Source: a virus. Taken from it: a DNA stretch of 20,625 nt. The notes under the pieces were generated by a model. That model was not told the DNA's origin, made no database searches, and saw nothing but the letters and a program-made list of their open reading frames with translations. Position numbers and translations under genes: made by a program. Shown piece after piece: positions 1,260-20,269 of this stretch. The stretch covers positions 1 through 20,625 of the IMG/VR virus record IMGVR_UViG_3300035664_000108; one strand, written 5' to 3'. Every line of letters begins with the position of its first letter. The stretch's first letter is position 1.

Positions 1260-1838
1260 ATGCACACAGAAAAAGTAGATGCACAAGACTCATTAGGCGC
1301 AACAACCCTTCTTGGTGGTAGTGTAGGCGAGCAACTTTCAGTCACAGGTCGATATGATGTTAAATGCCTTGATGCTGATGGTAATTTAAAGTGGGAAGAT
1401 TCAATTGAGAATCTCGTTGTGACTGTAGGTAAAAATAACTTACTCGATGTTTATTTAGGCGCAAGTACACCGACAACTACTTGGTACATGGGTCTTGTTG
1501 ACAACGCTTCATTCAGCGCTTACGCGGCTGGAGACACATTAGCTTCTCATACAGGCTGGCTAGAATACTTAGACTATACTATTTCAGGTAGTTCTACCAA
1601 TAGAGCAGCAGTAGCTTGGAACGCAGCATCATCAGGTTCTAAAGCATCAACAGCCACTACGTTTACAATTAGTGGTGCTGGCGGTACTGTGCTTGGCGTT
1701 ATACTGTGTGCGACACAGGCAAGAAACACGTCATCTAATGGTGGTGCAGGTATTCTTTATTCAGCAGGTAGTTTTGCAACTTCGCGTGCAGTTATTGCAG
1801 GTGATTCGCTTCTTGTAACTTATACAGCATCAGTGTAA
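1260..1838 (+). CDS. Conserved phage virion protein of unknown function (192 aa)
   Basis: After a variable N-terminus, residues ~30-60 carry GRYDVKCLDADGNLKWEDS and ENLVVTVGKNNLLD, followed by TWYMGLVDNASFSAYAAGD and a Ser/Thr/Ala-rich beta region ending in SLLVTYTASV. I recognise this arrangement from a common family of uncharacterised phage proteins, often next to the family of the preceding gene. No catalytic motif, transmembrane segment or signal peptide is visible. Translation starts at ATG 1260 with a weak AGG about 8 nt upstream. A tail or surface protein of the late operon is the most likely role, inferred from position and composition only. Confidence 0.78.
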   Translation: MHTEKVDAQDSLGATTLLGGSVGEQLSVTGRYDVKCLDADGNLKWEDSIENLVVTVGKNNLLDVYLGASTPTTTWYMGLVDNASFSAYAAGDTLASHTGWLEYLDYTISGSSTNRAAVAWNAASSGSKASTATTFTISGAGGTVLGVILCATQARNTSSNGGAGILYSAGSFATSRAVIAGDSLLVTYTASV

Positions 1839-1847
1839 GGACTTATT

Positions 1848-2654
1848 GTGGCTGGCGGTTGGGGTAGCGGAACTTGGGGGCAAGCTGGATGGGGTGACTC
1901 AGTCTATGAGGATACTCTTACTGAATCTGTAACAGCTACGAGCACCCAATCTGGTGCAGTAACTCAATCGCAAACGCTTACTGAATCTGTAACAGCTACT
2001 GATAGTCAATCATCGGTACTAAATGCGGTAGGGGCGCTTACTGAAACAGCTACAGCTACTGCTGCACAAACTGGAAACTTAATAGCAAGTCCTACGTTAA
2101 CTGAATCGGTATCAGCTACTGATGTGGTAGTCGGTGGTTTAGCAATAGCAGAAAGTTTAACAGAATCAGTAGTTGCAATAGATACACAGTCCTACACATT
2201 AAACGCTAGTGCTTCATTAACAGAGACAGTATCAGCAGATTCTAGTTTAGTAGCGGGAATATTGTTTACAAATTCTATAACAGAAACAGTATTGGCGTCA
2301 GATTCACAAACTACTGTACTGTATGCTGTAGGGGGTATCACAGAATCAATTAGTGCAACTGATTCACAAAGTGTAACCGTTTATATAACGGCTAGTGTAC
2401 TAGAAGAATTACTCGCCGAAGACTCACAAAGTGCTTCACTAGATGCTATAGCATCTATAATTGAGATAGGGGATGCAGTTGATGTAGTGTTTGCTAATGG
2501 GTCGTTCTATGTAACTATTAACGAAACAGTTTATGCACTTGACTCAGTTACTGGGCGATATTTGTGGGAACCTATAGACGATACCCAAACTCCCGCGTGG
2601 AGTATAATAAACAACAATCAGACTTCTACTTGGACACCGATAACGACTTCATAG
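1848..2654 (+). CDS. Repeat-built virion protein with eleven 20-residue units
   Basis: This 268-aa protein starts at GTG 1848, with AAGGA (1837-1841) overlapping the upstream stop. Residues 1-22 carry a Trp/Gly motif (GWGSGTWGQAGWG). Residues 23-242 divide without a gap into eleven units of exactly 20 residues with consensus near xLTESVTATDSQSxxLxAxx. The last 26 residues contain spaced W-x-x-I elements (PAWSIINN, STWTPITTS) of a kind I know from the ends of repetitive phage tail proteins. Thr/Ser/Ala/Val composition and strict periodicity suggest a repetitive beta structure, such as a fibrous rod or decoration. The two N-terminal units are most alike at DNA level and the later ones drift, so the array is old in part. 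No enzyme motif is visible and the function is unknown. Confidence 0.8.
   Translation: MAGGWGSGTWGQAGWGDSVYEDTLTESVTATSTQSGAVTQSQTLTESVTATDSQSSVLNAVGALTETATATAAQTGNLIASPTLTESVSATDVVVGGLAIAESLTESVVAIDTQSYTLNASASLTETVSADSSLVAGILFTNSITETVLASDSQTTVLYAVGGITESISATDSQSVTVYITASVLEELLAEDSQSASLDAIASIIEIGDAVDVVFANGSFYVTINETVYALDSVTGRYLWEPIDDTQTPAWSIINNNQTSTWTPITTS
1914..2573 (+). repeat. Tandem array, 11 units of 60 bp (20 aa)
   Basis: Eleven in-phase 60-bp units without any insertion or deletion. The best conserved part encodes (L/I)-T-E-(S/T) at unit positions 2-5; this motif decays in units 9 and 10 (VLEE, IIEI) and partly returns as INET in unit 11. Confidence 0.85.
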
Positions 2655-2663
2655 GTGCATTAA

Positions 2664-3464
2664 ATGGCTACATCATATACAACATTATTAGGGCTTGCCC
2701 AACCTGCTACAGGTGAGCTAGGTGGTACTTGGGGATCGGTAGTTAACGCGAGCGTAACTCAACTTGTTGAGGACTCTGTTGCGGGGGTTGCTACACAATC
2801 TGTTGCTTCTGGTAATTGGACCCTTTCAACAACTGGGGCTGGTGCGACAAATGAAGCACGAAAAGCCATTCTTATCCCAACAGGCTCACCCGGTGTATCG
2901 CGCAATATTATTGCACCTAGCTCAAGTAAAGCATACCTTGTTATTAACCAATCAAATGCGGCTGTAGTGCTTAAAGGTGCAGCAACAACAGGGGTAACGA
3001 TCGCTACTGGGGCTAATGTGCTAGTTGCTTGGAACGGTAGTGACTTTGTTAGCGTAACACCATCTTTATCAGCATATTTACCATTAGCTGGTGGTACGAT
3101 GACGGGTCTATTGACCACGAAAGAGTTAGCGTTAACTAAGACCGCACCAAGTATTTCAGCAGGTGTTTTGACTTTAGATTGCTCGTTATCTAATACATTT
3201 GCTGTTAGTTTAAACGCTGCAATTACTTCATTTACAGTTAGTAATATCCCAACATCGGGCAGTTACTACGAGTTTAATTTAGAGTTTACAGCAGATGGTA
3301 CAGCGCGGGCTGTAACATGGACTTTCTCAAGCGTTGCAGTTAAATGGCCTGGCGGTACAGCTCCTACGTTAACAAGTACAAACGGTAAAAAAGATACATT
3401 CGTATTCTACACTTACGATGCCGGTACGACTTGGCTTGGCTTCGTTGCAGGGCAAAACCTATAA
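2664..3464 (+). CDS. Tail-fibre-like protein
   Basis: This 266-aa protein opens with YTTLLGLAQPATGELGGTWG, an N-terminal module I know from phage tail fibre and spike proteins. Around residues 138-150 it has YLPLAGGTMTGLL, the Pro-Leu-Ala-Gly-Gly-Thr-Met-Thr-Gly repeat element found in many fibres. The C-terminal ~100 residues (LTLDCSLSNTF, then FTADGTARAVTW, ending in WLGFVAGQNL) form a beta-rich tip domain. Start ATG 2664 has AGGTG at 2653-2657. It should be surface exposed and may contact the host receptor or another fibre protein. The homing endonuclease gene begins 9 nt after its stop. Fibre class assignment is good; receptor and exact position on the tail are unknown. Confidence 0.8.
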   Translation: MATSYTTLLGLAQPATGELGGTWGSVVNASVTQLVEDSVAGVATQSVASGNWTLSTTGAGATNEARKAILIPTGSPGVSRNIIAPSSSKAYLVINQSNAAVVLKGAATTGVTIATGANVLVAWNGSDFVSVTPSLSAYLPLAGGTMTGLLTTKELALTKTAPSISAGVLTLDCSLSNTFAVSLNAAITSFTVSNIPTSGSYYEFNLEFTADGTARAVTWTFSSVAVKWPGGTAPTLTSTNGKKDTFVFYTYDAGTTWLGFVAGQNL

Positions 3465-3465
3465 T
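3436..3465 (+). promoter_or_regulatory. Possible sigma70-like promoter for the homing endonuclease
   Basis: TTGGCT (3436-3441) and a perfect TATAAT (3460-3465) are separated by 18 bp. A start point about 7 nt after the -10 would fall near 3472, only ~2 nt before the endonuclease ATG, giving an almost leaderless mRNA. TATAAT also occurs at 259-264 and 2603-2608 without a -35 match, so chance is a real possibility. Confidence 0.3.
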
Positions 3466-3475
3466 ACGTTATTAT
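3461..3475 (+). promoter_or_regulatory. AT-rich hairpin over stop and start codons before the endonuclease
   Basis: ATAATA (3461-3466), loop CGT, TATTAT (3470-3475) form a 6-bp stem that includes the stop of the fibre gene (3462-3464) and the AT of the endonuclease start codon (ATG 3474-3476). No Shine-Dalgarno lies at a normal distance upstream. The stem is weak (all A-T), so any effect on translation is inferred. Confidence 0.4.
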
Positions 3476-4238
3476 GAATATTTACTATACTTACGCTTTA
3501 ATCAATCCTTTTACTAATGTGATATTTTATGTTGGTAAAGGGAAAGATAATCGAGCTATGGAACACATAGTAGAAGCGACTAAACCTAATGGTAAACGTG
3601 CTAATAAGCATAAGCTCAACACAATTAGAGATATATTAGCTAAAAATGGTGAAGTAATTATAAAATACATAGACACTAATATAACTGAAAAAATTGCTTT
3701 TGAGTTAGAATGTTTTTTAATTGAACTGTTAGGTAGACGCGACAACAAAACAGGTGTGCTTACAAATCTTACTGATGGCGGAGAAGGTTTATCTGGGTTA
3801 CAAAGAGACTTATCTGGTAAAAATAACCCTAATTACGGTAAACGCGGTGAAATGGCTACTTGGTGGGGTAAAAAACACACCGAAGACACTAAACGTAAAC
3901 AGTCAGAATCTCAAAAAGGTAGAGTGTTTAGCGAAGCGCATAAAAGGGCTATGCGAAAACCTAAATCCGAACAAGGAAAGATTAACATTGCTAAGGCTAG
4001 ATTAGAAACTTCTTATAGACCATCTGAAGAAACTAAAAGAAAAACTAGCGAAGCATTGAAAGGTAGACCAAGCCCAACAAAAGGTAAAAAAATGTCAGAC
4101 GAGTTTAAAGCATCGATTAGTAAAAGATTTTTAGGTGTACCAAAAAAGAAAATTGAATGCCATAATTGCCACAATAGTGTTGCAATAAACACGGCTAATC
4201 GTTGGCACTTTGATAATTGCAAGGAGTTAACAAAATGA
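3474..4238 (+). CDS. Free-standing GIY-YIG homing endonuclease with NUMOD3 motifs and zinc finger
   Basis: A 254-aa selfish DNA endonuclease. Residues 1-105 are a GIY-YIG nuclease domain of the variant type: TYA (6-8) and YVG (19-21), then GKGKDNRAMEH with Arg27 as the expected catalytic arginine. The acidic metal ligand is probably Glu77 or Glu79, before the LTNLTDGGEG element. Residues ~114-220 hold several NUMOD3-type DNA-binding modules (for example SGKNNPNYGKRG and TKRKTSEALKGRP). The C-terminus has a C2HC zinc-finger-like motif, Cys229, Cys232, His245 and Cys249, in the familiar RWHFDNCK ending. The gene is A+T richer than its neighbours, as expected for recent arrival. It appears complete, lies between two tail genes that both look intact, and its TGA overlaps the next ATG. 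Its start lacks a good ribosome binding site. Confidence 0.9.
   Translation: MNIYYTYALINPFTNVIFYVGKGKDNRAMEHIVEATKPNGKRANKHKLNTIRDILAKNGEVIIKYIDTNITEKIAFELECFLIELLGRRDNKTGVLTNLTDGGEGLSGLQRDLSGKNNPNYGKRGEMATWWGKKHTEDTKRKQSESQKGRVFSEAHKRAMRKPKSEQGKINIAKARLETSYRPSEETKRKTSEALKGRPSPTKGKKMSDEFKASISKRFLGVPKKKIECHNCHNSVAINTANRWHFDNCKELTK
4221..4237 (+). promoter_or_regulatory. Ribosome binding site of the tail gene inside the endonuclease gene
   Basis: AAGGAG (4221-4226) lies 8 nt before ATG 4235-4237 and is read as Lys-Glu near the endonuclease C-terminus. It fixes the start of the downstream gene at 4235 rather than the in-frame TTG at 4217. Confidence 0.8.
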
Positions 4239-6142
4239 GTTTATTAAAAGTAGCTGGCACTACAGCTACAAGTGGGCAATTATATGTGGATTCGGTCTTT
4301 TCTACCTATCTCTACACCGGCAACGGCTCAACGCAAACCATCACTAACGGCATTGACTTGGCTGGTAAGGGTGGGTTGGTTTGGATAAAAGAAAGAAATT
4401 TTACTGATAGCCATCAATTGATTGATACAAATCGAGGTGTAGGAAATGCTTTATCATCTGATTTATCGTTTGCGAATAATTATAGCCCAACTGGTTTAAC
4501 TAATTTTAATAGCAATGGGTTTTCACTTGGTAGCTCGTCTTATGTGAATGGTTCATATAACTACGCCTCATGGACATTCCGCGAAGCACCTAAGTTTTTT
4601 GATGTGGTGACATATACGGGGACAGGTAGTGCAAGAACGATTGCACATAACTTAGGTATTGCTCCGGGAATGATTATTGTTAAGCGTACTGATGCAACAA
4701 AAGATTGGCAGGTTTATCACAGAAGTTTAACCTCAGCTGCGTATTCAATGCAGTTAAATTTAACTGACCCGCAAGCCTCAGCACCTACCGTATGGAACTC
4801 AACTGCACCGACAAGCTCAGTGTTTTCTGTAGGTACAGACTCAACGGTTAATGCTTCTGGTGGCACTTACGTCGCCTACCTATTTGCCCACGATACGTCA
4901 TCAACTGGGATTATTCAGTGTGGGAGTTATGGAGGTAATGGGAGTATCCCCGGCCCAACTGTTTCATTAGGTTGGGAACCGCAATACATACTTGTAAAAA
5001 GAGCCACAGGCGTAAATACTAATTGGGCAGTATTTGATGTGATGAGAGGGATGCCTGTAAGTACAACAGCGAATGCAATGTTGGCGCCAAATTTATCAGA
5101 TGCAGAATTTTCAAGTGGGTTTGTTAAGCCGAATGCTACTGGATTTCAAATAACAAATACCGGCGGAGGTTTTAATTCTTCTGGTGAAACCTACATCTAC
5201 ATGGCAATCCGTCGCCCAAACAAGCCGCCTACAACGGGGACGCAGGTTTATTTCACTGACCAAGCCGACGGCACAGGAGCATCCAACCCTCCTCAATTTG
5301 TAAGTGGGTTTCCAGTTGATTTAGCGTGGTATCAAGGCACAACAGGCGCGGCTGCTAGATGGACACCTAGGTTAACGTCTGGGTACTTTACGGAGTCTTC
5401 ATCAACTGCTGCTGAAGTTGTTTCATCCGCAACAAAATTTGACTATATGAATGGGTGGTTTAACGCAAATTTATCTAGTGGTTATTGGTCTTGGATGTTC
5501 AAACGCGCCCCCGGATTCTTTGATGTGGTTTGCTATACGGGGACGAGTAGCACTGTTGTAGTAACTAATAACTTAACAGTAGCACCAGAATTAATTATTA
5601 CAAAAAATAGATCCTCAACCGCAGATTGGGCTGTTTGTTATGGTTTTACTACAACAAATATGGGGTTTATGTTTTTAAACTCTGGGGGAGCTGCATCGTA
5701 TGACACTTATGCAAATCTTGGCGTATTAAACTCGAAACCAACTTCAACATCCTATTCACTTACTGCTGGGAGCGGGTTATTTATTAACAATCCAGGGTCT
5801 AATTTTGTCGCCTACCTATTTGCCACACTAGCTGGAATCTCTAAAGTAGGTTCTTACACAGGTAATGGTACAGGACAATCTATCGCGTGTGGATTTGGCT
5901 CTGGTGGTGCAAGGTTCGTCTTGATTAAGCGCACAGACTCTACTGGCGGTTGGTACACATTTGACTCGGCTCGTGGATTAACAAGTGGCTCAAGTCCATA
6001 CTTACTGCTTAATAGCACAGCGGCACAGGTCACGGGTAATAACGGTGTCTACGCATCATCGGGTGGCTTTACACTAGGTGCAACGGCAATAACAACGACC
6101 AATATAGCAACAGCAACATACATCTTCTTAGCAGTGGCATAG
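4235..6142 (+). CDS. Large tail/fibre protein with duplicated DUF7483-like domains
   Basis: A 635-aa protein without enzyme motifs, built from repeated beta domains. Units starting with a Tyr-Thr-Gly-(Asn/Thr)-Gly-like motif recur about five times (YTGNGSTQTI, YTGTGSARTI, YGGNGSI, YTGTSSTVVV, YTGNGTGQSI). They are often followed by a (V/A)-P-x-x-I-I-(V/T)-K strand and a W-x-V/W-x-x-F segment. This pattern matches what I know as DUF7483 in phage tail proteins. The two halves are related: APKFFDVVTYTGTG pairs with APGFFDVVCYTGTS, and FVAYLFA-type segments lie 312 residues apart. No signal peptide or membrane helix is present. Start ATG 4235 overlaps the endonuclease TGA in ATGA, so translation may be coupled. 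It is probably a host-contact fibre or tail surface protein; the receptor is unknown. Confidence 0.8.
   Translation: MSLLKVAGTTATSGQLYVDSVFSTYLYTGNGSTQTITNGIDLAGKGGLVWIKERNFTDSHQLIDTNRGVGNALSSDLSFANNYSPTGLTNFNSNGFSLGSSSYVNGSYNYASWTFREAPKFFDVVTYTGTGSARTIAHNLGIAPGMIIVKRTDATKDWQVYHRSLTSAAYSMQLNLTDPQASAPTVWNSTAPTSSVFSVGTDSTVNASGGTYVAYLFAHDTSSTGIIQCGSYGGNGSIPGPTVSLGWEPQYILVKRATGVNTNWAVFDVMRGMPVSTTANAMLAPNLSDAEFSSGFVKPNATGFQITNTGGGFNSSGETYIYMAIRRPNKPPTTGTQVYFTDQADGTGASNPPQFVSGFPVDLAWYQGTTGAAARWTPRLTSGYFTESSSTAAEVVSSATKFDYMNGWFNANLSSGYWSWMFKRAPGFFDVVCYTGTSSTVVVTNNLTVAPELIITKNRSSTADWAVCYGFTTTNMGFMFLNSGGAASYDTYANLGVLNSKPTSTSYSLTAGSGLFINNPGSNFVAYLFATLAGISKVGSYTGNGTGQSIACGFGSGGARFVLIKRTDSTGGWYTFDSARGLTSGSSPYLLLNSTAAQVTGNNGVYASSGGFTLGATAITTTNIATATYIFLAVA
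4598..5824 (+). repeat. Diverged internal duplication, ~936 bp period
   Basis: Segments at about 4598-4635 and 5516-5553 are similar, and an 18-nt string beginning GTCGCCTACC is identical at 4871-4888 and 5807-5824. The 936-bp offset of the latter equals 312 codons. The coordinates span the first copy to the end of the second matching string. Confidence 0.6.
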
Positions 6143-9253: not shown

Positions 9254-10780
9254 ATGCACAGCGTTGCCAATAAATTAGCACAATATGGTCGTGGAGGTGA
9301 TGACACACTAGTCCACATGAATAAGGCAGAAGTGGCTGGGCTTAACGCGCTTAACCATGCATTAAACAATCGCCCTCTCTCAAAAAACCCAGTAACAGGT
9401 ATGACTGAAGCGATGGACTTGACTGACATCCTCGCAGGTCTTGGTATTGGTGTGGCTGCTGCACTTACTGGTGGCGCGGCTGCCGCCGCTGCTCCTATGC
9501 TTTTGGGTGCTACAGCGGGTGCGGCTGGTGGTGCGGGTGCTTTAGGTCTTGGCGCTCTTGCTGGCGCGGCTACTGGCGCTGGGCTTAATGCAGGTAAAGC
9601 CGCTATTAAAGGCGATCAAGATATCGGCATGGCAGCAGCATTTGGTGCGGGGTCTGGTGCGCTTGGTGGTCTAGGTGGAGCTGCTGGTGTGGGTGGTGAA
9701 GCGGCAGCGGGTAATGTAGCGGAAAAAGGTTTAGAAAGTACAATAACTAATGTAGCTACACCAACTCTAAATAGCGCAGCAGAAGGCTTTAGCGAGGTAG
9801 GTAAATCAGCTCTCGAAGAAGGGGCAAAATCAGCCACTGAGAACAGCTTACAAGGCGGCATCGCAGGTTTAAATAATCAGGTTGGTTCTACTCTAACTTC
9901 TCAAGCGCAGAATGCAATTACCCCGTCTAGTTTTGCAGAGCACCTAGCTCCTACAGATGCTCTTAATTCATCAAGTGTAGGACTCACAGCACAAGGTGGG
10001 TCAATGATCCCAGGAGCAGCGCCAGGCGCTTCAACAGCAACAGCAGCATCCCTAAACCCTTTTGAACAAAGCTTTGCTGGATTAAAAGACACTATTACGA
10101 ACCCTATGCAACATCAGGGTATGCTAGCCGCGCAAGTAGGCGCAGCAGGGCTTGAAGACCAATATAAGCAACAAGGGTTAAACGAGCAAGCCAGTGCAAA
10201 ACAAGCAAATGAAATTGTTGGGCAGTACAGAAAAGCGGGGATTATGCCTAGTGAACTCCCCAAAGGGCTAACTGATATTGCTAATAGAAGAAAAAGCTTT
10301 GCTGCTGGCGGTACCATTCGTGACGTTCAGGGTTTAGGTGCTATTCCAACTGGCTATATTAACCAGCAGCCTATGCAGAACTTTTACCCACAGAGCATGA
10401 TTCCACAAGCCCAGCCTCTGCAATCAACGCAACCTATTCGCCATGAAGTTATTGGGTATGCTGACGGTGGACAAGTTGGTTATGGCTACGCTGAAGGTGG
10501 TGATGTTGGCGGTGGTGATGAAGGGTTGTTGCATGGACCAGGCACAGGGCAAAGTGATGGGATCGCTGGTTTGATTGAAGGCGCTCAGAGTCAAGAGCCG
10601 GTGCGTTTAGCCGATTCTGAGTTTGTAATCCCCGCTGATGTGGTATCCGCATTAGGGTCTGGTTCAACCAAAGCGGGTGCCCAAGCGTTATACGATATGC
10701 TTGATAGGATCCGTCAGCAGGCTTATGGGCATATACAACAGACAAACCCTGTAGACCCAAGCAAAGTCCTACCCGCGTAA
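9254..10780 (+). CDS. Gly/Ala-rich internal virion (ejection) protein
   Basis: A 508-aa protein. The N-terminus has YGRGGDDTLVHMNKAEVAGL and KNPVTGM, a signature of a common podovirus virion protein family. Residues 56-150 are almost wholly Gly, Ala and Leu with several hydrophobic stretches, consistent with insertion into the host membrane during DNA entry. A polar, Gln-rich middle follows. The C-terminus holds three FAAGG/YADGG/YAEGG motifs (residues 349, 402, 412) and a conserved block, VRLADSEFVIPADVVSALG (450-468), followed by GSGSTKAGAQALYDMLDRIR. AGGAG (9244-9248) lies 5 nt before ATG 9254. Ejection function is inferred from family context and composition. It heads the block of internal proteins reaching 20269. 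Confidence 0.75.
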   Translation: MHSVANKLAQYGRGGDDTLVHMNKAEVAGLNALNHALNNRPLSKNPVTGMTEAMDLTDILAGLGIGVAAALTGGAAAAAAPMLLGATAGAAGGAGALGLGALAGAATGAGLNAGKAAIKGDQDIGMAAAFGAGSGALGGLGGAAGVGGEAAAGNVAEKGLESTITNVATPTLNSAAEGFSEVGKSALEEGAKSATENSLQGGIAGLNNQVGSTLTSQAQNAITPSSFAEHLAPTDALNSSSVGLTAQGGSMIPGAAPGASTATAASLNPFEQSFAGLKDTITNPMQHQGMLAAQVGAAGLEDQYKQQGLNEQASAKQANEIVGQYRKAGIMPSELPKGLTDIANRRKSFAAGGTIRDVQGLGAIPTGYINQQPMQNFYPQSMIPQAQPLQSTQPIRHEVIGYADGGQVGYGYAEGGDVGGGDEGLLHGPGTGQSDGIAGLIEGAQSQEPVRLADSEFVIPADVVSALGSGSTKAGAQALYDMLDRIRQQAYGHIQQTNPVDPSKVLPA

Positions 10781-10781
10781 T

Positions 10782-11183
10782 ATGCAACTTATCTACTGCG
10801 AAAACATTAGAGATTCTTGGGATTTTATTCGTAATGCTTTAGAATGTCTCATAATTAAAACGAATACCAAAGGCTGGATTCCTGAAGATATTTTTATGGC
10901 AGCTGTGCTAGGGCAAGCCAGAGTCTACAGGACTCCAGACGGGGTTATCGTATTCAAACTGCTTACAGACGATTTGACACATGAGGTTTCGTTATTCGTA
11001 TGGGCTGCCTATAGTACAGAAGGTGATGCGCTAGTTAAGTATCATCAAGACGTTGACGCCATAGCCAGAGAGTTTGGTGCAAGCAAAATAACATTTACTT
11101 CCTCCCGTAAAGGTTGGCATAGAGCCATAGATAAAACTCCTGGGTGGAGAGAAGGCGAAACCATTTACGAAAAGAGGATTTAA
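10782..11183 (+). CDS. Degenerate GNAT-fold phage protein
   Basis: The 133 residues look like an acetyltransferase (GNAT) fold: N-terminal helix (SWDFIRNALECL), strand GVIVFKLL, strand SLFVWAAY, helix DALVKYHQDVDAIAREFGAS, strand KITFTSS, and a final strand around GETIYEKR. The acetyl-CoA loop normally found after the central strand (R/Q-x-x-G-x-G/A) is replaced by STEGDA, so catalysis is doubtful. Small GNAT-like proteins are known among podovirus internal proteins; T7 gp13 is the analogue I have in mind. It starts 1 nt after the previous stop with no clear Shine-Dalgarno, so it is probably translated by coupling. Either a virion assembly component or a modified enzyme is possible. Confidence 0.7.
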   Translation: MQLIYCENIRDSWDFIRNALECLIIKTNTKGWIPEDIFMAAVLGQARVYRTPDGVIVFKLLTDDLTHEVSLFVWAAYSTEGDALVKYHQDVDAIAREFGASKITFTSSRKGWHRAIDKTPGWREGETIYEKRI

Positions 11184-11185
11184 TT

Positions 11186-12931
11186 ATGGGCGGTTCATCA
11201 GTACCATCAAGCACTACACAGACCACAATGCTCGACCCAACCCGTCAGGCGGCTCTAAAAAAGTCGATGGGTTATTTTGACAAATGGGCAGACACCTATA
11301 AAGGACCGACATATAAAGGACCGTTAACTGCTGGTAGAACCTCTGATTGGTACGCTGCCCAAAACATGGCGCATAAGATGGCTAATAGGTTCTCTGAGGG
11401 GGGGATAACTAGTGTGCGGCGATTTGATGACGGTGGGCTAACCCTCGGTTCTGTTGTAGGTCCTCCTAGTGCTACGTCTGACCAGTCATACGGTCCAGTA
11501 CCTTTTGCTATGACTAACGATCAGGTGCCTACAGGTTATAACAACACTTATGCGTTTGATAACCCAAACTTAACTTTAACAACCGTAGATGGACCTATAA
11601 GCGCCTATTCCAACCAGACAGTCACAGATAAACCTCAAGTTACAGCTCCTAACGCTTTTGCTATGACTAACGATCAGGTGCCTACAGGCTATAACAATAC
11701 TTATGCGTTTGATAACCCAAACTTAACTTTAACAACCGTAGATGGACCTATAAGCGCCTATTCCAACCAGACAGTCACAGATAAACCTCAAGCTCCATTT
11801 GTCCCTACTAATGATTGGGGCGAACCATACCAACCCGCAGTGGCTAATCCTAATACCCAATCATTAAACCCATACGACACTATGGACGCTACGGGATTAA
11901 ACCCATACAACACTAAGGTAAATGTAGCTGATACAGGAGCAGGACTGGATGCTCTTAAAGATAAAGTAAATGTAGCTGATACAGGAGCAGGGCTAGACGC
12001 ACTTAAAGATAAAGTAAATGTAGCTGATACAGGAGCAGGAGCAGGAGCAGCGACAGATCAAGCTGTTAAAGATGTAGCACTGCAAAAAGCCATAACGGAT
12101 GCTAATCTAACACCAGCGAATGTTACACCGACGGTAACCTCAACGAATATGGGCAGTCCTTATTTACTAGGGCAAGCGCTAACGCTTGGTGGTGCGGGTA
12201 GTGCATTTAGATTAGGGTCAGATGTAACACCAAAACAAATTTATAACTCCTATAACACACCCGATAAGTTTACGCCCGACACGTGGAATAAGGCAGCAAT
12301 GGACACCTATATGAGTCCCTATACTCAAGGTGTGGTCGATATTGCTTTGCGTGAAGCGGAGCGGCAACGAGGTATAGAAAGGTTAAGAGAAAACACAGCG
12401 GCTACACAATCAGGTGCATTTGGTGGGTATCGTCAAGGTGTTGTCGAAGCGGAAGGGGAAAGAAACTATAACCAGCTTCTCAATGATATAGAGACTAAAG
12501 GTTACCAAAACGCCTATACTGATGCGGTCTCTCAATTCGCTGCGGATAGAGCTGCTAAACAAGCGGCATATACCGCAAACCAACAAGCCCTACAAGCGGC
12601 TGCTACAGGTGATATTTCTGCTGGTCAGTACAACCAAGCTAATAAGTTCCAAGCGTTTACTAATCAATTAAACGCACTTAACCAAGGTGTAAATAACGTA
12701 CAGAACCTAGGTGCTTTAGAAACAGCTTATCAGACTGCTATGGGTAATGCAGGAGCCGCGTTAAACAGTACAGATGCAAGTGCAAGAGCGTCAGACCAAG
12801 CGACTATAGACGCACTAAAACAACTAGGTATTGATATTACAAATGTTGATTGGACTAAAGCACAAAACTTGTCAGCACTAGCTGGTTTGTCGCAAAACAA
12901 TTCTAATGTCCAAATCAAACAATCAAATTAA
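11186..12931 (+). CDS. Internal virion protein with recent internal duplications (581 aa)
   Basis: Residues 1-85 contain two aromatic-x-x-Gly-Gly motifs (FSEGG 69, FDDGG 80). Residues ~100-300 are low complexity with a near-perfect 51-residue duplication and three 16-residue units (KVNVADTGAGLDALKD). The C-terminal ~220 residues are a conserved helical domain. It begins near DTYMSPYTQGVVDIALREAE, continues with TQSGAFGGYRQGVVEAEGER, then long Ala/Gln-rich helices ending at NNSNVQIKQSN. This C-terminal domain is familiar from large podovirus internal proteins. An in-frame upstream ATG at 11144 overlaps the GNAT gene by 40 nt; ATG 11186 has GAGGA (11174-11178) at 7 nt and is preferred. The role in DNA ejection is inferred. 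Confidence 0.75.
   Translation: MGGSSVPSSTTQTTMLDPTRQAALKKSMGYFDKWADTYKGPTYKGPLTAGRTSDWYAAQNMAHKMANRFSEGGITSVRRFDDGGLTLGSVVGPPSATSDQSYGPVPFAMTNDQVPTGYNNTYAFDNPNLTLTTVDGPISAYSNQTVTDKPQVTAPNAFAMTNDQVPTGYNNTYAFDNPNLTLTTVDGPISAYSNQTVTDKPQAPFVPTNDWGEPYQPAVANPNTQSLNPYDTMDATGLNPYNTKVNVADTGAGLDALKDKVNVADTGAGLDALKDKVNVADTGAGAGAATDQAVKDVALQKAITDANLTPANVTPTVTSTNMGSPYLLGQALTLGGAGSAFRLGSDVTPKQIYNSYNTPDKFTPDTWNKAAMDTYMSPYTQGVVDIALREAERQRGIERLRENTAATQSGAFGGYRQGVVEAEGERNYNQLLNDIETKGYQNAYTDAVSQFAADRAAKQAAYTANQQALQAAATGDISAGQYNQANKFQAFTNQLNALNQGVNNVQNLGALETAYQTAMGNAGAALNSTDASARASDQATIDALKQLGIDITNVDWTKAQNLSALAGLSQNNSNVQIKQSN
11502..11792 (+). repeat. Near-identical 138-bp direct duplication (153-bp period)
   Basis: 11502-11639 and 11655-11792 differ at only two positions (GGT/GGC and AAC/AAT), both synonymous, giving 45 identical residues per copy. 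A weaker third relative precedes them (LTLGSVVGPPSATSDQ compared with LTLTTVDGPISAYSNQ). Confidence 0.9.
11915..12046 (+). repeat. 48-bp tandem repeat, 2 full and 1 partial unit
   Basis: Units 11915-11962, 11963-12010 and a partial unit from 12011 encode KVNVADTGAGLDALKD. The third breaks off into a GCAGGA run (Ala-Gly). Just upstream, LNPYDT and LNPYNT form a further short repeat. Confidence 0.88.
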
Positions 12932-12946
12932 GGGGGAGGGAGCTAA

Positions 12947-15814
12947 ATGAGCATTAAATATTTACAAGACCAACAGTTAAATCAGGTCCAACAAAGCCCT
13001 AACAACTCCCCTTGGGCAAAACTTATTGCACAGTCAGAAATGCTAGAGCGTAATAAAATGAGACAACCTCAAGGTCAAGCACCACAAGGCACCGTAGCGG
13101 GTAACATCCAGCAGCAACTTATGGCGGCGCAGGAGCAAGAAGGTGAAAGACAAAACGCTGACCTGTATAAATCCCAGATGCTTGCACAGCTTATTGGCTC
13201 AGGTCAAATACCTGCTAATTTTATGTCCTCGTCTCAAGGCTATGCGGATGGTGGACTAACACAGCCACAAGCGGGTACAGGCGCGTATCGCGGTATTATG
13301 ATGCCTAACCAATCACCTCAGATGCAAGGGCAAAGACCTACTTATACACCACCTAACTCACAAGACCCCGCTGCGCAAGAAAAGAAACATGGGTTGATTC
13401 AGTCTTTAATTGACAATTCTATTTTTAAAGCCCCTACCACTGAAAGCTTTATGAATAACCTTGGTGACATGGCATCAGGTAAGTTTCTTAGCCGAGGCTT
13501 CGCTGAAGGCGGTGATGTTCGTGGGTTTGCCGCTGGCGGTGAGACGATGGCGGAGCAACTTGCTCGTATCAGACCTCAGATAGAAGCTACACTTAAGAAC
13601 CAAGGCTGGACTAAGGAAGCTATTGATCGCTATGTCTCCGCATATAAACCAGAAATGGGTCGTGGGTTCACTAATCAACTCCCCGCAACAACAGCGCAGC
13701 CCCCTTCGTTCGAAGATATGCTTAATCTGCAAAGACAAAAAGCAGCACAGACTGGTGTGGGCATTAAACCTTTTACTGCGGAGCCAGAGGCTCCACACCC
13801 ATTTCAACAAGCTGCGGAAGAAAGAGCCGCAAGACTTAGAGAAGAGCTACAACTAGCACCTCACAGAGAAGCAGCGGAAGCAAGAGCAGCTAAACTACGC
13901 GCTATACAAGAACAAGCCGCAGGCGCACAAAGAACGCTACCAGCTCCTGGACCAACAAGTACGTCAAGCTTAGAATCTGTTTTAGGTAAAAATGCTAATG
14001 TACAAGATTTTATTAATTCTCTAAAATCTAAGCAACTAACCACGACAGGAGCACCTGCTAGCGCGATGCCTGAAGGTGTTGAGAATCTTCCAGCGGTTAG
14101 AACAGGTACAGGATTACCTGCGGAAACTAATTATGGTAGAGGTGCAACTGTTGATGCCCCTTATTTTGTACATCCAAATGCAACACCTAACGCTGATGCA
14201 GCAGCAAAATCAGCATGGGAATCAGCGAACATTTTAGATAGGGCTAATAGTAAATGGGATAGAGGGCAGTCTCCCGAAGCTAAAGCTTGGTTAGCGGCGC
14301 AACAACAAGCAAATGCGCCAGTAGAAGGCAAGCCACCTGTACCTTATGACCCTATGGCTCCTGGTGCAACAACACTTGAAGAAGTAGCGGCTAAAGCAAA
14401 GCAAGGGTTAGGTAGTTTAGGTGAAGCAGCTAAAGTTGTTGGTCGTCCTATTGCTAAAGTAGCAGGAGCACTGTCACCTATTGGCGACCTTATAATGGCT
14501 AATAAATTTACAGGTGGTTCTAACGCATTGTTAGCTCAAGCATTGTCTGGTCAAACACCAAGTGGTTCTATGCAAGGCGATATTCCTGAGGTAGCAAAAG
14601 ATTTAATGACAGCGCCAAGTGTACCTGACTGGGCTAAAAACATAGGTTCCGCTATTAATAGCAAAGTGCCTTCAGTCCCACAAACTGATATATCTCAATT
14701 TGGGGTAGATGCAAAATCGGCTATCCCTCAGCAACCTACTATCGGGGACTTCAGCGGTTCTGTTCCTGAAACAAAAGGTCCAACAGCAAACGACAAAGGG
14801 GTTATCATTAACCCACATAGTGCAAATAAACACGAAAATACTACTGCTAACATCGCGGCTATTAACCGAGCACATGGGCAAGATCAACCCCAACCTACAA
14901 CACCAGTAGACCGAGCGGTAACACAAGCAGCGGCATTAGCTCAAACTGACCAAGCGGTAAGCAAATCAAGCGATACAGGTATGGGTCAAGGCAGTATCTT
15001 AGACTCGCTGTATAGCAAACTAAAAGACTCAGATGTAGATTATAGTGACCTTGCTAAACGTATTTCACAGAACGAATATGACCTTGCTCGTGAAAGAAAA
15101 GATGGCACATTCAACGCTATATTAGGTGGGGTTGGTGCGGCGCTTACTCAGGCTGGTACTTATCAAACCGCTGGAGATCGTGTGTTCAAACCTGGTCTTG
15201 GTGCTATTGCTGGTGCTGGTATTATGGGTGGTCTTAAAATGTCTGCGGCTTCTGATGAAGCAATCAGTAAAAAATCCCAAGACAATATGACAGCTATGAT
15301 AGCTCTCAAAAAGCTCAAACGTGAATCGATGAACGATGTCCTCGATGCTCTCTCAGCGCAGAAACAAAATGAAGTGTATGCGCAAAGCGTAGCTAATACC
15401 GCTCTAGCCCATAAAGACACCGCAGCTAACGCCGCGACGAAAAACCTGATTGATTTTAAGCAGGTTAATATAAACGAACAGATGGCGCTTAAAAATATGG
15501 AGCACCTCGATGCGCAAATTGCAGATCTGTACACTAAAGCAAGCTCTGACCCTAACCTACAAGGTAAAGTTAACCTAGCCGCAGATAAAGCAAAAACAGC
15601 TAAAGACGTTTTAACGTCGCTTATAAACGGAATGGTGCAACCATCTGACCCACGATATATTGAGGCTAGATCAAACTTTAATGCTGCTTTCGCTGACTTA
15701 AATTCTCTAGGTGGTGTTCTGAAAATACCTACCACTGTTGTTGCTCCAAATGCGGGTGGCCAAACCCCCCAAACAACCGAGGAATGGGCAGATCAAGGTT
15801 ATATCAAACGATAA
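12947..15814 (+). CDS. Large internal virion (ejection) protein, 955 aa
   Basis: A mostly helical, Gln/Ala-rich protein. Residues 1-95 are Gln-rich and charged. YADGG (99), FAEGG (185) and FAAGG (194) repeat the motif of the two preceding large proteins. Residues ~201-240 form a charged domain (AEQLARIRPQIEATL, WTKEAIDRYVSAYKPEMG), followed by an Ala/Glu/Arg helix around 286-325. Hydrophobic Gly/Ala stretches near residues 490-520 and 725-770 (ILGGVGAALTQAG, LGAIAGAGIMGGLKM) could touch membranes. Residues ~770-900 are long helices with coiled-coil character. The C-terminus ends in TTEEWADQGYIKR. A very strong ribosome binding site (GGAGG 12935-12939) precedes ATG 12947 by 7 nt, suggesting high output. 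The family assignment is by context and pattern; no enzyme motif was found. Confidence 0.72.
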   Translation: MSIKYLQDQQLNQVQQSPNNSPWAKLIAQSEMLERNKMRQPQGQAPQGTVAGNIQQQLMAAQEQEGERQNADLYKSQMLAQLIGSGQIPANFMSSSQGYADGGLTQPQAGTGAYRGIMMPNQSPQMQGQRPTYTPPNSQDPAAQEKKHGLIQSLIDNSIFKAPTTESFMNNLGDMASGKFLSRGFAEGGDVRGFAAGGETMAEQLARIRPQIEATLKNQGWTKEAIDRYVSAYKPEMGRGFTNQLPATTAQPPSFEDMLNLQRQKAAQTGVGIKPFTAEPEAPHPFQQAAEERAARLREELQLAPHREAAEARAAKLRAIQEQAAGAQRTLPAPGPTSTSSLESVLGKNANVQDFINSLKSKQLTTTGAPASAMPEGVENLPAVRTGTGLPAETNYGRGATVDAPYFVHPNATPNADAAAKSAWESANILDRANSKWDRGQSPEAKAWLAAQQQANAPVEGKPPVPYDPMAPGATTLEEVAAKAKQGLGSLGEAAKVVGRPIAKVAGALSPIGDLIMANKFTGGSNALLAQALSGQTPSGSMQGDIPEVAKDLMTAPSVPDWAKNIGSAINSKVPSVPQTDISQFGVDAKSAIPQQPTIGDFSGSVPETKGPTANDKGVIINPHSANKHENTTANIAAINRAHGQDQPQPTTPVDRAVTQAAALAQTDQAVSKSSDTGMGQGSILDSLYSKLKDSDVDYSDLAKRISQNEYDLARERKDGTFNAILGGVGAALTQAGTYQTAGDRVFKPGLGAIAGAGIMGGLKMSAASDEAISKKSQDNMTAMIALKKLKRESMNDVLDALSAQKQNEVYAQSVANTALAHKDTAANAATKNLIDFKQVNINEQMALKNMEHLDAQIADLYTKASSDPNLQGKVNLAADKAKTAKDVLTSLINGMVQPSDPRYIEARSNFNAAFADLNSLGGVLKIPTTVVAPNAGGQTPQTTEEWADQGYIKR

Positions 15815-15826
15815 TAAGGAGCAATC

Positions 15827-18800
15827 ATGGCTAAAAATCTCAGTATAGAAGCACCTAATAAAAAGGTATATAACATCGAGGTGCCTGACCACGCAACGGA
15901 TGATGACGCTTTTAGATACGTTCAACACCTCATGGAGCAGGACGCTCAACATGAAGAAAAGACTGGGGTATTCCCTCACGCGACTCAAGCCCTCACTCAA
16001 GGTAGAGCAAATATGTACGAGGGTGCTAGTACAATTGCTGGGTTAGCAGGGTTTCCTGAAACGGAAGCGTCTTTAGCAGAAAAGGGTAAGAAGACGAAAG
16101 AAGCCGCCGCTGGCATGGCAGAGCCTACTACACCTGAAGATGTAGCGGCGGCTGAAGCTAAAGGTCCTGTGTCGGGTGCAATAGCGTCTTTAGAAAAGAA
16201 TATAGGGGAACCTTTAGGCAGTGGTGTAGGGAGTATCGCACCTACAGCAGCGATGTTAGCGACAGGGAGCTGGCCTATTGCAGCCGTGGGCGCTGGAGCG
16301 GAGTATCTACGCGACGTTGGGCATATTAGAGAATTAGGTGGTACACCAGAAGCATCGGCTCTTGGTGGTGTTCCTGTTGCTGCAATCAACACAGGTACCG
16401 GCGTTGGTGGTCTTGTAAATAATGCTATCACTCGAAAACTAGCGCTCCAAGCAGGAGAAGGTTTAGCAACTAAAACAGCAAAAGCTACAGCTACAAACGC
16501 GATTGTTGGTGGTCCTTCAGCTATTGCAGCAGAAGATATATCGCGCAGCGCTGCAAACCAACCGCTAATGAACAAAGAAGAAATGGGTGAAACACTAAAA
16601 GACGTGGCTATTACCTCGGTACCATTTGGTGCCGCTCACGCTGTAGCTTCTCATTTAGCAACACCTAAAACTAACCCTCTTATCCCAGACCATTTAGCAA
16701 GTAGAACTAATGCGACTACAGAGCAACCTGCGCCTGACAATATCCCAGAGCCTACAGTTATAGGTAAACCAGAGACTATGGATCGTGGAGCGACGCCTTT
16801 AACAGACGAAGGTGTTGTGCATGACGCGGATTCACTGGCTAGAAACTTCGATCTAAAGAATGCAGAGAAAAGACACTACAACATATGGGGTATCCGTAAT
16901 GTAAACGGAGAAGGCTTCGCGCAGTATAAATCGCTTGACGATGGGTTAAACCATATTAACGGACTACTTGAGCGTTATGAAACAAAACATGGAGTTGATA
17001 CACCTGCTAAATTAGCTCATCGCTATGCACCACCAGAAGACCATAACGATACGGCGGCGTATGCTAAAAACATAGCAGACCATTTAGGCGTTGACGTAAA
17101 CGATAAGATTCACTTAACAGACCCACTAACTCGCCAAAAAGCTATCTGGGCTATTACTCGTCAAGAAGGTATTGCGCATCTCAACAAAGGGGCTAACTAC
17201 GCGCCATATACCCCAGGAGAGAAACCTGTTGTAGAAGGTCAGGCAGCCGCAGGGCAACCCGCTCCAGCCATGCTTACGCCAGAACAAATCCGTGACCAGC
17301 TAGGGCTTACTAAAAACCACGCAGCATACAAATCACTTAAAGACTTGGACTTAACCTCTGATGAAGGACTAGCTAACGCAGAGAGTGTGCTGTCAGGGCT
17401 TAAAGATACGGCAGGGGAAAAAGGTAGTATCACGGAAGATAAGGTCAGTGCTGTTGACGATATAATAAATCAGCTCAAAACTAAGCCTGAAGCAGTTAAA
17501 CCTGCTGACCCGATGGACAGATATTTTGAGGACGTACTGGGTGAAACTGATAAACCCGAAGCTATTAAACCAACCGCACCTAAGGCTATGGAAGCGGTAA
17601 ACCCGCTTACCCCCGAGCATTTACGTAGGGGTACATCAGGCGGAGTAGAAACTGCCGAAGCAGATTTACTTACTAACCCAAGCACCGTAGTGCGTGACCC
17701 TGAGGGTAAACCGACGTTCATCAAAGCAGTTAAAGACACAGCTAAAAACTTCGGTAAAAACCACGTCGATAAATGGCTTGGGCTTGCTAAGATTAACGAG
17801 GTGTATGGTGACTATGTAGGCGATCAGATGAGCGCTTATTGGACTGGGCATGAGTTAGACAACATAGGCAGAATTATACCTAGAGCACTCGAAAAAGGCG
17901 GACTTAAAAAGATGCCTGATGGCCGCATAGAAGTTATTGAACTGCCTATTACATTGCATGATGGTTCGACTAAAAATGCATCAATTAAAAATATGCTCGA
18001 CCTAATAAAAAACGAAAAGGGTGGTCAGGATGTTTTGAATGAGCTTCTTTGGGTGACAAACGAAAAGCGTATGCTTGAAAAAAACCCAGAAAATGCGAGC
18101 TTACGCGCAACTAGAGACCCTGAAGGTTTTGCTAAGAAAGTACAGAGTGTCGATACAATCCTCAAGAGCAAGCCTGTGTATCAAGATGCGCTGAGTATGC
18201 TCAAAGAAGTGAATAGCGCACGTGTTGAGTTCCTTAAAGACACTGAGCAACTTACTGATGATATGTATAAGTATTTCAAAGAGAACGAGCTGTATGTACC
18301 CAACTATATGTTGCGTGATGAAGCATCGGATATGCTCGGCGCTTCAGGTAAAAAGACAACTATTGGTAACACAGCAACTCGTGCTTTTAGAGAACGTACA
18401 CCATCAGATCACGATACCAACCCAATGGAGAATATCACTAATGAATTTTTACGCTCCTATATTGGTGGTGCAAGAAACAACCATAAATTGCAGACCGCCC
18501 TACAACTGCAAAAGATAGGTAAGGCATCTTATGTTGGCCGCACTAATGTTAAAGCTAAGCAGGGTAATTTTGGTGTTTTAAAAGGTGGCAAGCGTGAGTT
18601 TTATGAACTGCACGACCCAACAGATTATCCAGTGATGCAGATTCTAAGTCAGAGCGTAAATCCTATTATGATGGCGGCTCGTGCTTCTGCTGGGATTATA
18701 CGTACTGCGGCAACTAATACCCCTAACTTCTGGCTACGCCAATTATTTATTGACCCGCTTGGCGCTTCGATGGTTAGTGACGTTGGTTGGGTAACACCTG

Positions 18801-20269
18801 CACATACGATGTATCAGATCACTAGAGCGTTAACGGGAAATAAAAAGATTCTTAATCGGCTTATGGATGCGGGTGTTGTTGGGCATATCGACCCAACGCT
18901 TGACCCTAGAGACTCTCGTGCTTTCTACAAAGAAGTGGGCACACGTACTGTATCTAAAAGTGGACTTGATAAGTTTAAAGGTAAACTGCGTAGTGGCTCT
19001 GAATATGCACATATCTTAATTGACGGCGGTACTCGCTGCGCAGTTTACGAGAAAGCTTATGCTAAAGGTTTGAAAAAAGGGATGTCACCTGAGAAGGCAG
19101 ACAGCTATGCTGTTATGAAAGCGCGTGAGGTTATTAACTTTGGTGTTAGCGGTAACGCAGAATCTCAAAAAGTAGCGCGTCAGATGACACCTTTTCTTGG
19201 CGCGAGTATTAATGCCATTGAAGTAATGCGAAGAAACTTAACGATGGAGCACGTTAAGCTTGAAGATAGACCCGCGTATCGTCGGCAGTTTATGAATAAA
19301 GTCTATACCGTAGGTATGCTCTCGGCGGTACACGCGCTCTATATGGCTGGCGACCCTGACTACGAAGAAGCTATGAACAACTTCAAGTACAGCAAAGTGG
19401 CTATCCCTACGGGTAATAAAGAAGATCCGCTGTTTGGCGCGGCTATTCCTCCCGATATGGCGTTCCTCTACTATATACCTGCGCTTGTTGCACAATACGC
19501 TACAGGTACAAAAGATAGCCATGAAGTGTGGAAAATCATCAAAGACCAAGCACTGACTATGGTTCCTGGTGGTGTTGGTTACACAGGTGTTCCCATCCCT
19601 CAAATTGCTAAACCACCACTTGAGTTAGTGACGGGTAAATCATTCTTTACTGGTCAGGACATCGTACCTAAAGCAGAGCAGGGTTTACCTTCGTGGGCGC
19701 AGGGGCAGTACACTGCATCAAAAACAAGTAAAGCGGTAGGCAGAATGTTTGATATATCCCCGCCTAGGCTTGATGCGTTTGTTAAGGGGTACCTAGGTTC
19801 GTTTGGTGATATAGCACTTTGGGCAGTTGACGGTATGCTTGACGCTACAGGGGTTGCAGATAACATTCAAAAACCTGATAAGCATTGGACACAGACTCCA
19901 GGTCTTGGGTTGCAGAGTAGTTTTGGTACTTACCTCGCTAGTCAATCTGTTGAAGATATGTACACACATAAAGAAAAAGCAGACAAAGCACGTAAGCTCT
20001 ACAATCAGCTAGGCTCACAAGGTGCCGCAGGACAGGAAGACTTTAAAAACTTTACCTCTGACCCAGAAAACATCAAGCTGGTACAACTCGCTACAGTGCT
20101 CGACAGATATGCTAAAAAAGAGTCTGATATTATGAAACAGATTCACGTATTGCAGAACAGCAATATCAGTAGTGAAGAGATGACTCGTCGCATCAAAGAG
20201 TGGAAAGAGCAACGTAACGATGTTGCTAAAGAAGCTGAAAAAATGTATGCGAGTGTGATGGGTAAATAA
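15827..20269 (+). CDS. Giant ejection protein with lysozyme-like domain and LPD38-like C-terminal half (1480 aa)
   Basis: The N-terminal ~40 residues (KKVYNIEVPDHATDDDAFRY) form a small beta/helix module seen at the start of other phage polyvalent proteins. Residues ~130-235 contain Gly/Ala-rich hydrophobic stretches. Residues ~339-450 resemble a lysozyme-like domain of phage structural proteins: NIWGIRN (352-358), GEGFAQYKSLDDGL, HRYAPPEDHNDTAAY, and a closing WAITRQEG. I cannot assign its catalytic acid. After a linker, residues ~590-1400 carry helical domains and the NTPNFWLRQLFIDPLG region (~964-979) that I associate with large polyvalent protein-associated domain 38. By analogy with T7 gp16 it would be ejected first, open the cell wall and help pull DNA in. 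AAGGAG (15816-15821) lies 5 nt before ATG 15827. It is the last gene before the terminator. Confidence 0.78.
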   Translation: MAKNLSIEAPNKKVYNIEVPDHATDDDAFRYVQHLMEQDAQHEEKTGVFPHATQALTQGRANMYEGASTIAGLAGFPETEASLAEKGKKTKEAAAGMAEPTTPEDVAAAEAKGPVSGAIASLEKNIGEPLGSGVGSIAPTAAMLATGSWPIAAVGAGAEYLRDVGHIRELGGTPEASALGGVPVAAINTGTGVGGLVNNAITRKLALQAGEGLATKTAKATATNAIVGGPSAIAAEDISRSAANQPLMNKEEMGETLKDVAITSVPFGAAHAVASHLATPKTNPLIPDHLASRTNATTEQPAPDNIPEPTVIGKPETMDRGATPLTDEGVVHDADSLARNFDLKNAEKRHYNIWGIRNVNGEGFAQYKSLDDGLNHINGLLERYETKHGVDTPAKLAHRYAPPEDHNDTAAYAKNIADHLGVDVNDKIHLTDPLTRQKAIWAITRQEGIAHLNKGANYAPYTPGEKPVVEGQAAAGQPAPAMLTPEQIRDQLGLTKNHAAYKSLKDLDLTSDEGLANAESVLSGLKDTAGEKGSITEDKVSAVDDIINQLKTKPEAVKPADPMDRYFEDVLGETDKPEAIKPTAPKAMEAVNPLTPEHLRRGTSGGVETAEADLLTNPSTVVRDPEGKPTFIKAVKDTAKNFGKNHVDKWLGLAKINEVYGDYVGDQMSAYWTGHELDNIGRIIPRALEKGGLKKMPDGRIEVIELPITLHDGSTKNASIKNMLDLIKNEKGGQDVLNELLWVTNEKRMLEKNPENASLRATRDPEGFAKKVQSVDTILKSKPVYQDALSMLKEVNSARVEFLKDTEQLTDDMYKYFKENELYVPNYMLRDEASDMLGASGKKTTIGNTATRAFRERTPSDHDTNPMENITNEFLRSYIGGARNNHKLQTALQLQKIGKASYVGRTNVKAKQGNFGVLKGGKREFYELHDPTDYPVMQILSQSVNPIMMAARASAGIIRTAATNTPNFWLRQLFIDPLGASMVSDVGWVTPAHTMYQITRALTGNKKILNRLMDAGVVGHIDPTLDPRDSRAFYKEVGTRTVSKSGLDKFKGKLRSGSEYAHILIDGGTRCAVYEKAYAKGLKKGMSPEKADSYAVMKAREVINFGVSGNAESQKVARQMTPFLGASINAIEVMRRNLTMEHVKLEDRPAYRRQFMNKVYTVGMLSAVHALYMAGDPDYEEAMNNFKYSKVAIPTGNKEDPLFGAAIPPDMAFLYYIPALVAQYATGTKDSHEVWKIIKDQALTMVPGGVGYTGVPIPQIAKPPLELVTGKSFFTGQDIVPKAEQGLPSWAQGQYTASKTSKAVGRMFDISPPRLDAFVKGYLGSFGDIALWAVDGMLDATGVADNIQKPDKHWTQTPGLGLQSSFGTYLASQSVEDMYTHKEKADKARKLYNQLGSQGAAGQEDFKNFTSDPENIKLVQLATVLDRYAKKESDIMKQIHVLQNSNISSEEMTRRIKEWKEQRNDVAKEAEKMYASVMGK

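Follow-up and report, generated by a model that had tools for sequence, protein, structure and literature searches.

An [FY]xxGG peptide at module joints in the predicted ejection proteins of a short-tailed-type phage and its relatives

The window analysed here is a stretch of viral DNA of 20,625 bases (IMG/VR record IMGVR_UViG_3300035664_000108) that encodes an SU10-type adaptor (Pfam E 1.7e-22), an M15 peptidase and, at position 7143, a phrog_3287 virion protein which is the 'tail gene' of the counts below. The next gene encodes protein A (508 aa; 9254–10780), the first of a putative ejection module; a gene for a 133-aa protein separates it from B (581 aa; 11186–12931), which is followed by C (955 aa; 12947–15814) and D (1480 aa; 15827–20269), A to D all lying on the plus strand. 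That the proteins of the module are ejected is predicted from gene order and family. Pfam searches of A, B and C gave no domain above cut-off, C and D had no match by sequence in the PDB at E 0.1 and tblastn of C against phage records gave none at E 0.01. D contains an LPD38 domain, and a short region of it (residues 339–460), which also occurs in virion proteins of the SPN1S/phiV10 type and in an endolysin PHROG, is likely to be a peptidoglycan-cutting domain. B has internal protein repeats (TNDQVPTGYNNTYAFDNPNL occurs twice and VNVADTGAGLDALKDK is repeated), and its relatives have different repeats in the same region. Among the tail-fibre genes lies a 254-aa ORF (3474–4238) that ends in short repeated motifs; its start resembles a GIY-YIG endonuclease, and it may be a homing endonuclease.

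A sequence-only reading of the window had described eight copies of an [FY]xxGG motif in A, B and C, with none in D; all eight were found at the residues given and D indeed has no copy. On the plus strand, A carries FAAGG (residue 349; 10298–10312), YADGG (residue 402; 10457–10471) and YAEGG (residue 412; 10487–10501), the last just ahead of a C-terminal GPGTGxSDxI/EFVIPA module (from residue 428; 10535–10777) that A shares with tape-measure proteins. B carries FSEGG (residue 69; 11390–11404) and FDDGG (residue 80; 11423–11437), and C carries YADGG (residue 99; 13241–13255), FAEGG (residue 185; 13499–13513) and FAAGG (residue 194; 13526–13540). Seven of the eight have A or S at the second position, the exception being FDDGG. 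A ninth match, YGRGG at A residue 11 (9284–9298), had been overlooked; we did not count it as a linker copy and assigned it to another conserved N-terminal motif, GR[GN]xD, because distant A homologues read KGRNGD, RGRGPD or similar at this position. The A-like N-terminal stretch (GRxGDTxLVHMxPxEV; 9254–9400) resembles the C-terminal GPGxGxSDxI/GEFV module by eye, most clearly in L108; A may carry the module at both ends (9254–9400 and 10535–10777).

When residues were shuffled within each protein, the number of [FY]xxGG matches was higher than expected in A (p = 0.0005, ninth match included), in C (p = 0.003) and in B (p = 0.0285). Four other window genes have single copies: YTAGG (p = 0.10), YAVGG (p = 0.046), FGSGG (p = 0.60) and FTYGG (p = 0.41). 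The description of the surroundings as low-complexity linkers agrees with the AlphaFold prediction for A, in which the three linker copies fall in 10-residue blocks of pLDDT 26–36; this is weak evidence for a linker because 447 of the 508 residues are below 50; with a mean pLDDT of 37 the model is too poor for fold assignment.

Wherever the contigs of L003–L008 (IMG/VR) and of L016 reach the linker copies of A, these are kept. The changes are small (L016 reads FAVGG and L007 reads YAKGG), and L007 has gained one copy. Both B copies still read [FY]xxGG in L003–L007 and L016 (e.g. FEDGG, FPTGG). Of the C relatives, those of L004, L006 and L007 carry three copies, which include FAGGG and FVEGG, whereas the third is missing from those of L003 and L016. 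As to loss in close relatives, which the earlier reading had said would speak against the motif, most copies are kept; their number and position vary between relatives.

What that reading missed, and what we consider the main and well-supported pattern, is that the copies mark module joints. Over its first ~198 residues C is 83–85% identical to its relatives in L003, L006 and L007, and over residues 1–288 it is 54% identical to that of L004; beyond the conserved N-terminal part the relatives diverge abruptly, into alternative segments. Three different segments follow RGFAEGG/RGFAAGG (C residues 185 and 194): one in the window C, another in L003 and L006, and a third in L004 and L007. The segment found in L003 and L006 is attached behind the first copy in L003 and behind the second in L006. 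In the L007 relative of A, ~325 additional residues stand between YAKGG and YAEGG, after the position equivalent to residue 402; a Pfam search of this insert gave no match at E 0.05. In L062 and L085 a single ORF consists of an A-like C-terminal module followed by what is by eye a B-like region, with three copies at the joint. The D protein of L003 and L011 runs on past the end of the window D with GMAKGG and then cargo that includes LPD23. Beyond GMAKGG the extended D of L011 (12644–18424) has an HEAQH sequence as well as LPD23, which suggests a metallopeptidase-like cargo that is missing from the window phage. Joints are demonstrated for C 185/194 and A 402/412. The link is not close for B, where the first stretch matched in L005 and L006 ends at residues 116–122, ~35 residues past the motif pair, and no clear module break was seen in relatives at A 349 or C 99.

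The association with breaks in homology was measured in two sets of loci. The first came from an alignment of the tail protein, of which the best 80 loci were used (250 ORFs downstream and 374 upstream of the tail gene); the second came from a scan with an A-like C-terminus, which gave at least 80 loci, 78 of them used, and in which A-like ORFs were treated separately, since YADGG was part of one search peptide. In the best 80 loci, 61 of 123 [FY][AS].GG copies had an internal BLAST end no more than 10 aa away, where random placement gave 21.8 (sd 3.9); for [FY]..GG lacking A or S the count was 23 of 97 (random 16.0), and for A.GG lacking F or Y 100 of 339 (random 64.9). Taken together, 84 of 220 [FY]..GG copies were near BLAST ends versus 163 of 795 other GG pairs. 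In the second set, the fractions within 8 aa of recurrent breaks were 91/237 for [FY][AS].GG, 49/138 for MA.GG, 172/540 for [^FYM][AS].GG and 412/1691 for other GG, all of them above random. The motif thus sits at breaks, as do Gly-Gly linkers in general, and the aromatic residue adds little.

Exchange between joints was also seen in proteins with enzyme domains. In MW202675 (L028), one polyvalent-type protein has a GNAT domain (residues 64–121), YASGG at 214, an M15 peptidase (294–378), YADGG at 409 and ART-PolyVal (569–721), and a second has FNTGG at 722 and InPase from 734; these proteins with the motif between enzyme domains are encoded next to a portal-type gene. InPase relatives at 28 loci gave 26 ORFs, and [FY]xxGG immediately precedes the domain in 19 of them; of the other seven, two have the domain at their very start, one carries HKAGG, and those of L133, L135, L136 and L137 lack a copy ahead of it. 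Across 14 aligned InPase proteins the first copy reads [FY]xxGG in 11, while the second keeps F or Y in 13 and GG in all 14 as the two middle residues vary. Among the 13 comparisons made with L028, those with L115, L116, L127 and L128 gave 73–89% identity before the first joint, 72–78% in InPase and 26–30% in between. Both joints read [FY]xxGG in L115, L116 and L127; L128 lacks it at the first. The middle segments are homologous by BLAST (E ~1e-18), and a divergent version has therefore been exchanged. In an AlphaFold model of the L119 protein (1811–4519) a core at residues ~400–718 is folded between the copies (most 10-residue blocks at 60–93), and the blocks that hold the copies have pLDDT values of 29 and 33, although the InPase domain is also below 50. 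Foldseek of this model against the PDB found no match below E 0.57; the very weak matches to the ~400–718 cassette were to YTH domains, the best at E 0.57.

Enrichment of the motif in ejection proteins was the check that the sequence-only reading had proposed, with a background rate as the outcome that would speak against it. Many of the loci are homologous and the counts are for this reason not independent. Downstream of the tail gene in the best 80 loci, [FY][AS].GG occurred 67 times against 12.6 in shuffled sequences and the window-derived form [FY][ASD][ADE]GG 41 times against 3.8; upstream, the two forms occurred 29 times (13.8 in shuffles) and 15 times (3.2). When each cluster was reduced to one ORF, the figures became 24 against 5.4 and 13 against 1.9 downstream, and 14 against 6.7 and 5 against 1.3 upstream, so that the upstream excess of [FY][AS].GG over shuffles is smaller but real, and its density per 1000 residues is then much the same on the two sides (0.40 downstream, 0.37 upstream). 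It is the first letter, not motif density, that separates the two groups of proteins. Where xA[^G]GG occurs downstream in the best 80 loci, x is F, Y or M in 71 of 197 cases (M 4.8-fold, Y 4.3-fold and F 3.6-fold over composition) versus 8 of 89 upstream (M 0.6-fold, Y 1.0-fold, F 1.2-fold), and Arg is depleted at this position in the ejection set (0.3-fold). The second set agreed: F/Y/M precede AxGG in 98 of 239 cases downstream (21.4 expected) and in 2 of 103 upstream (10.3 expected), and with one ORF per cluster [FYM]A.GG occurred 9 times against 2.5 in 26 downstream ORFs and 6 times against 4.1 in 90 upstream ORFs. [FY][AS].GG was present downstream in 60 of the 65 loci of this set with at least 900 aa there. 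The proposed enrichment therefore holds beyond shuffles, with a first letter specific to the downstream proteins, but non-redundant density is alike upstream. A point on the other side is that in the best 80 loci F/Y stand directly before GG downstream (129/1176) as commonly as three residues before (122/1171). A logo of 66 distinct downstream [FY][AS].GG copies has G commonest at position −1, D or E at position 3, and I, R or M and then V after GG. A better consensus than [FY]xxGG is [FYM]AxGG, often G-[FY]-A-[DE]-G-G-[IRM]-V.

The module next to the joint in A links these proteins to tape-measure proteins. As defined from alignment A7 the tape-measure C-terminal module is GPGxGxSDxI, then GEFV, then a stretch that contains glycine, and A carries it as GPGTGQSDGI, SEFVIPA and GSGST. 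The 11-row profile of A7, A included, matches the tape-measure chains 8zdo (Douge gp16, two module copies; E 3e-16) and 8rk3 (JBD30 gp46, module at residues 1017–1057; E 1.8e-6), and all three matched stretches have [FY]xxGG near the module. Window A alone matched phrog_342 only and no tape-measure PHROG; in other phages, A-like proteins do match PHROGs of that kind, through the C-terminal module (best E 5.9e-9, L023). Four of six records fetched around tape-measure matches have [FY]xxGG in the stretch, and L143 and L144 do not (L144 has MARGG). Lambda gpH has FATGG at 733, GEFV at 754 and YATGG at 778, and in all three lambda-like proteins fetched [FY]xxGG stands on both sides of the module. 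With gpH 720–853 as query, 19 of the 25 matches listed, out of 939 and mostly from related phages, end within 10 residues of YATGG. Despite this shared arrangement of module and nearby [FY]xxGG in lambda gpH, JBD30 gp46 and Douge gp16, we did not file A as a tape-measure protein because its neighbourhood, with the SU10 adaptor, is of the short-tailed type; unlike the tape-measure phages the window phage looks short-tailed, and its motif also occurs in B and C, where the module was not seen.

Tape-measure proteins are ejected, and the accessible accounts report cleavage for those of lambda, T5 and JBD30. The T5 protein pb2 is cut after R1127, which separates a metallopeptidase domain, and the lambda protein is also described there as cleaved (PMC10038345, passages available). 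At R1127 pb2 reads NSFVPR|AEGG, the sole GG in its last 700 residues, and R-A-x-G-G is present in all five T5-like proteins fetched, of 904 matching (RAEGG, RAAGG, RANGG, RASGG and RAEGG). The suggestion that the motif is a protease site thus gains one circumstantial anchor in a cut directly before AEGG, weakened by the first position in T5 being Arg and not F, Y or M. The available part of the JBD30 paper, which cites the T5 work, places cleavage at residue 1066, beyond the module and not at AxGG, and the excerpts available from the literature on tape-measure cleavage yielded no mapped site for lambda gpH. Giant-phage ejection proteins are processed by proteolysis at prohead-protease sites, which in the portion of the source available end in E (AVE, ALE, SQE; PMC5694885), whereas the window motif ends in GG. 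A prohead-protease AxE site with E at P1 was rejected, the eight copies having no fixed E.

Other known systems offer partial likenesses. Polyvalent proteins are, in the sections of PMC5512222 available, virion-associated and multi-domain. D may be of this kind, having LPD38, and the relative's D has LPD23 in addition; the likeness extends to the two motif-bearing MW202675 proteins with their GNAT, M15, ART-PolyVal and InPase domains, but not to A, B and C, in which Pfam gave no domain. The same sections describe domains together with processing by zincin-like peptidases (Iyer et al. 2017, PMC5512222); the words 'linker' and 'glycine' are absent from the main text of that paper. The ejection proteins of T7 and P22 are similar in likely role and in their position beside tail genes, and domain swapping among ejection proteins is already described in the accessible text of PMC8954989. 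In T7 (22.5–37 kb, ORFs of at least 100 aa) we found one copy only, FSTGG in gp16; in P22 (1–22 kb) there were five copies in four ORFs and none in gp7, gp20 or gp16. As the P22 ejection proteins lack the motif and those of T7 have one, it is not needed for ejection as such. Among the papers listed from an open-licence library, no title or abstract opening names such a motif, and those listed for its five-letter strings were on unrelated subjects only.

The reading we prefer, to which we give a probability of about 0.8, is that [FYM]-A-x-G-G, alone or in tandem 8–11 residues apart, marks joints in proteins predicted to travel in the virion and to be ejected, where it would provide an exposed and flexible turn that connects modules able to fold on their own. 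In at least some proteins a host or phage protease would separate the cargo or C-terminal enzyme module at the motif. Such cutting is plausible by analogy with T5, the one experimental parallel; the joint together with cutting at the motif is a tentative proposal that we hold at less than even odds. That the ejected proteins of short-tailed phages, virion polyvalent proteins and tape-measure proteins share a single widespread processing signal, [FYM]|AxGG, cut directly before Ala, appears unlikely.

Among the alternatives, a passive hinge is somewhat doubtful. Here the motif would be a turn without structure, serving to separate the modules and to allow the protein to unfold and pass along the tail channel, recognised by nothing, its bulky residue incidental or helping to pack the protein in the head. 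Such a turn accounts for the nearness of all kinds of GG linker to homology breaks and for copies lying in low-confidence coil in the models of A and L119. A bulky residue would not be required for it, however, and enrichment of 3.5–5.5-fold is seen for each of F, Y and M downstream and not upstream; moreover, the InPase second copy holds its aromatic and glycines while the residues between them vary.

It is improbable that the motif serves as a docking peptide for a common partner (portal, inner core or another ejection protein) or for self-association of linkers. The spacing of successive copies, with a peak at 8–11 residues (29 of 133 gaps; 86 gaps exceed 30), would suit such a role. So would its spread across proteins: among the best 80 loci, 38 have at least 900 aa downstream, and [FY][AS].GG occurs there in 21 of these, in 14 of them in two or more proteins. 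Against docking, copy number and place vary between close relatives, and the MW202675 polyvalent-type proteins also have the motif between enzyme domains. A packaging tag, another function raised by the sequence-only reading, is disfavoured by the absence of the motif from D and from P22 gp7, gp20 and gp16, by the single T7 copy and by the same variation between relatives.

That the copies are background in Gly-rich, low-complexity sequence is very hard to credit: single copies do occur in other window genes, upstream ORFs are also in excess, and ORFs with at least two [FY]xxGG in eight GenBank relatives include very Gly-rich ones (L023 has 6 copies and 91 GG), but shuffles, first-letter specificity and replication in the second set all speak against it. 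A DNA-level recombination site translated by chance, which the abrupt segment differences at the copies might suggest, is just as hard to credit, because the copies differ in codons, which points to selection on the peptide, and because copies within one ORF share their Gly codons in 33 of 90 pairs (0.367), close to the 0.333 of random Gly pairs.

Alignment of ejection and tape-measure proteins is difficult, and most of them have no annotated domain. With a joint that can be recognised, they could be split into modules and exchanged cargo could be found, with candidate early-infection effectors among it, and chain ends could be predicted for virion proteomics. The internal proteins of short-tailed phages would be linked with tape-measure proteins through a common module and joint, and where and why tape-measure proteins are cut becomes testable. 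If the common processing signal is real, swappable cargo modules would be delivered joined and released as separate proteins.
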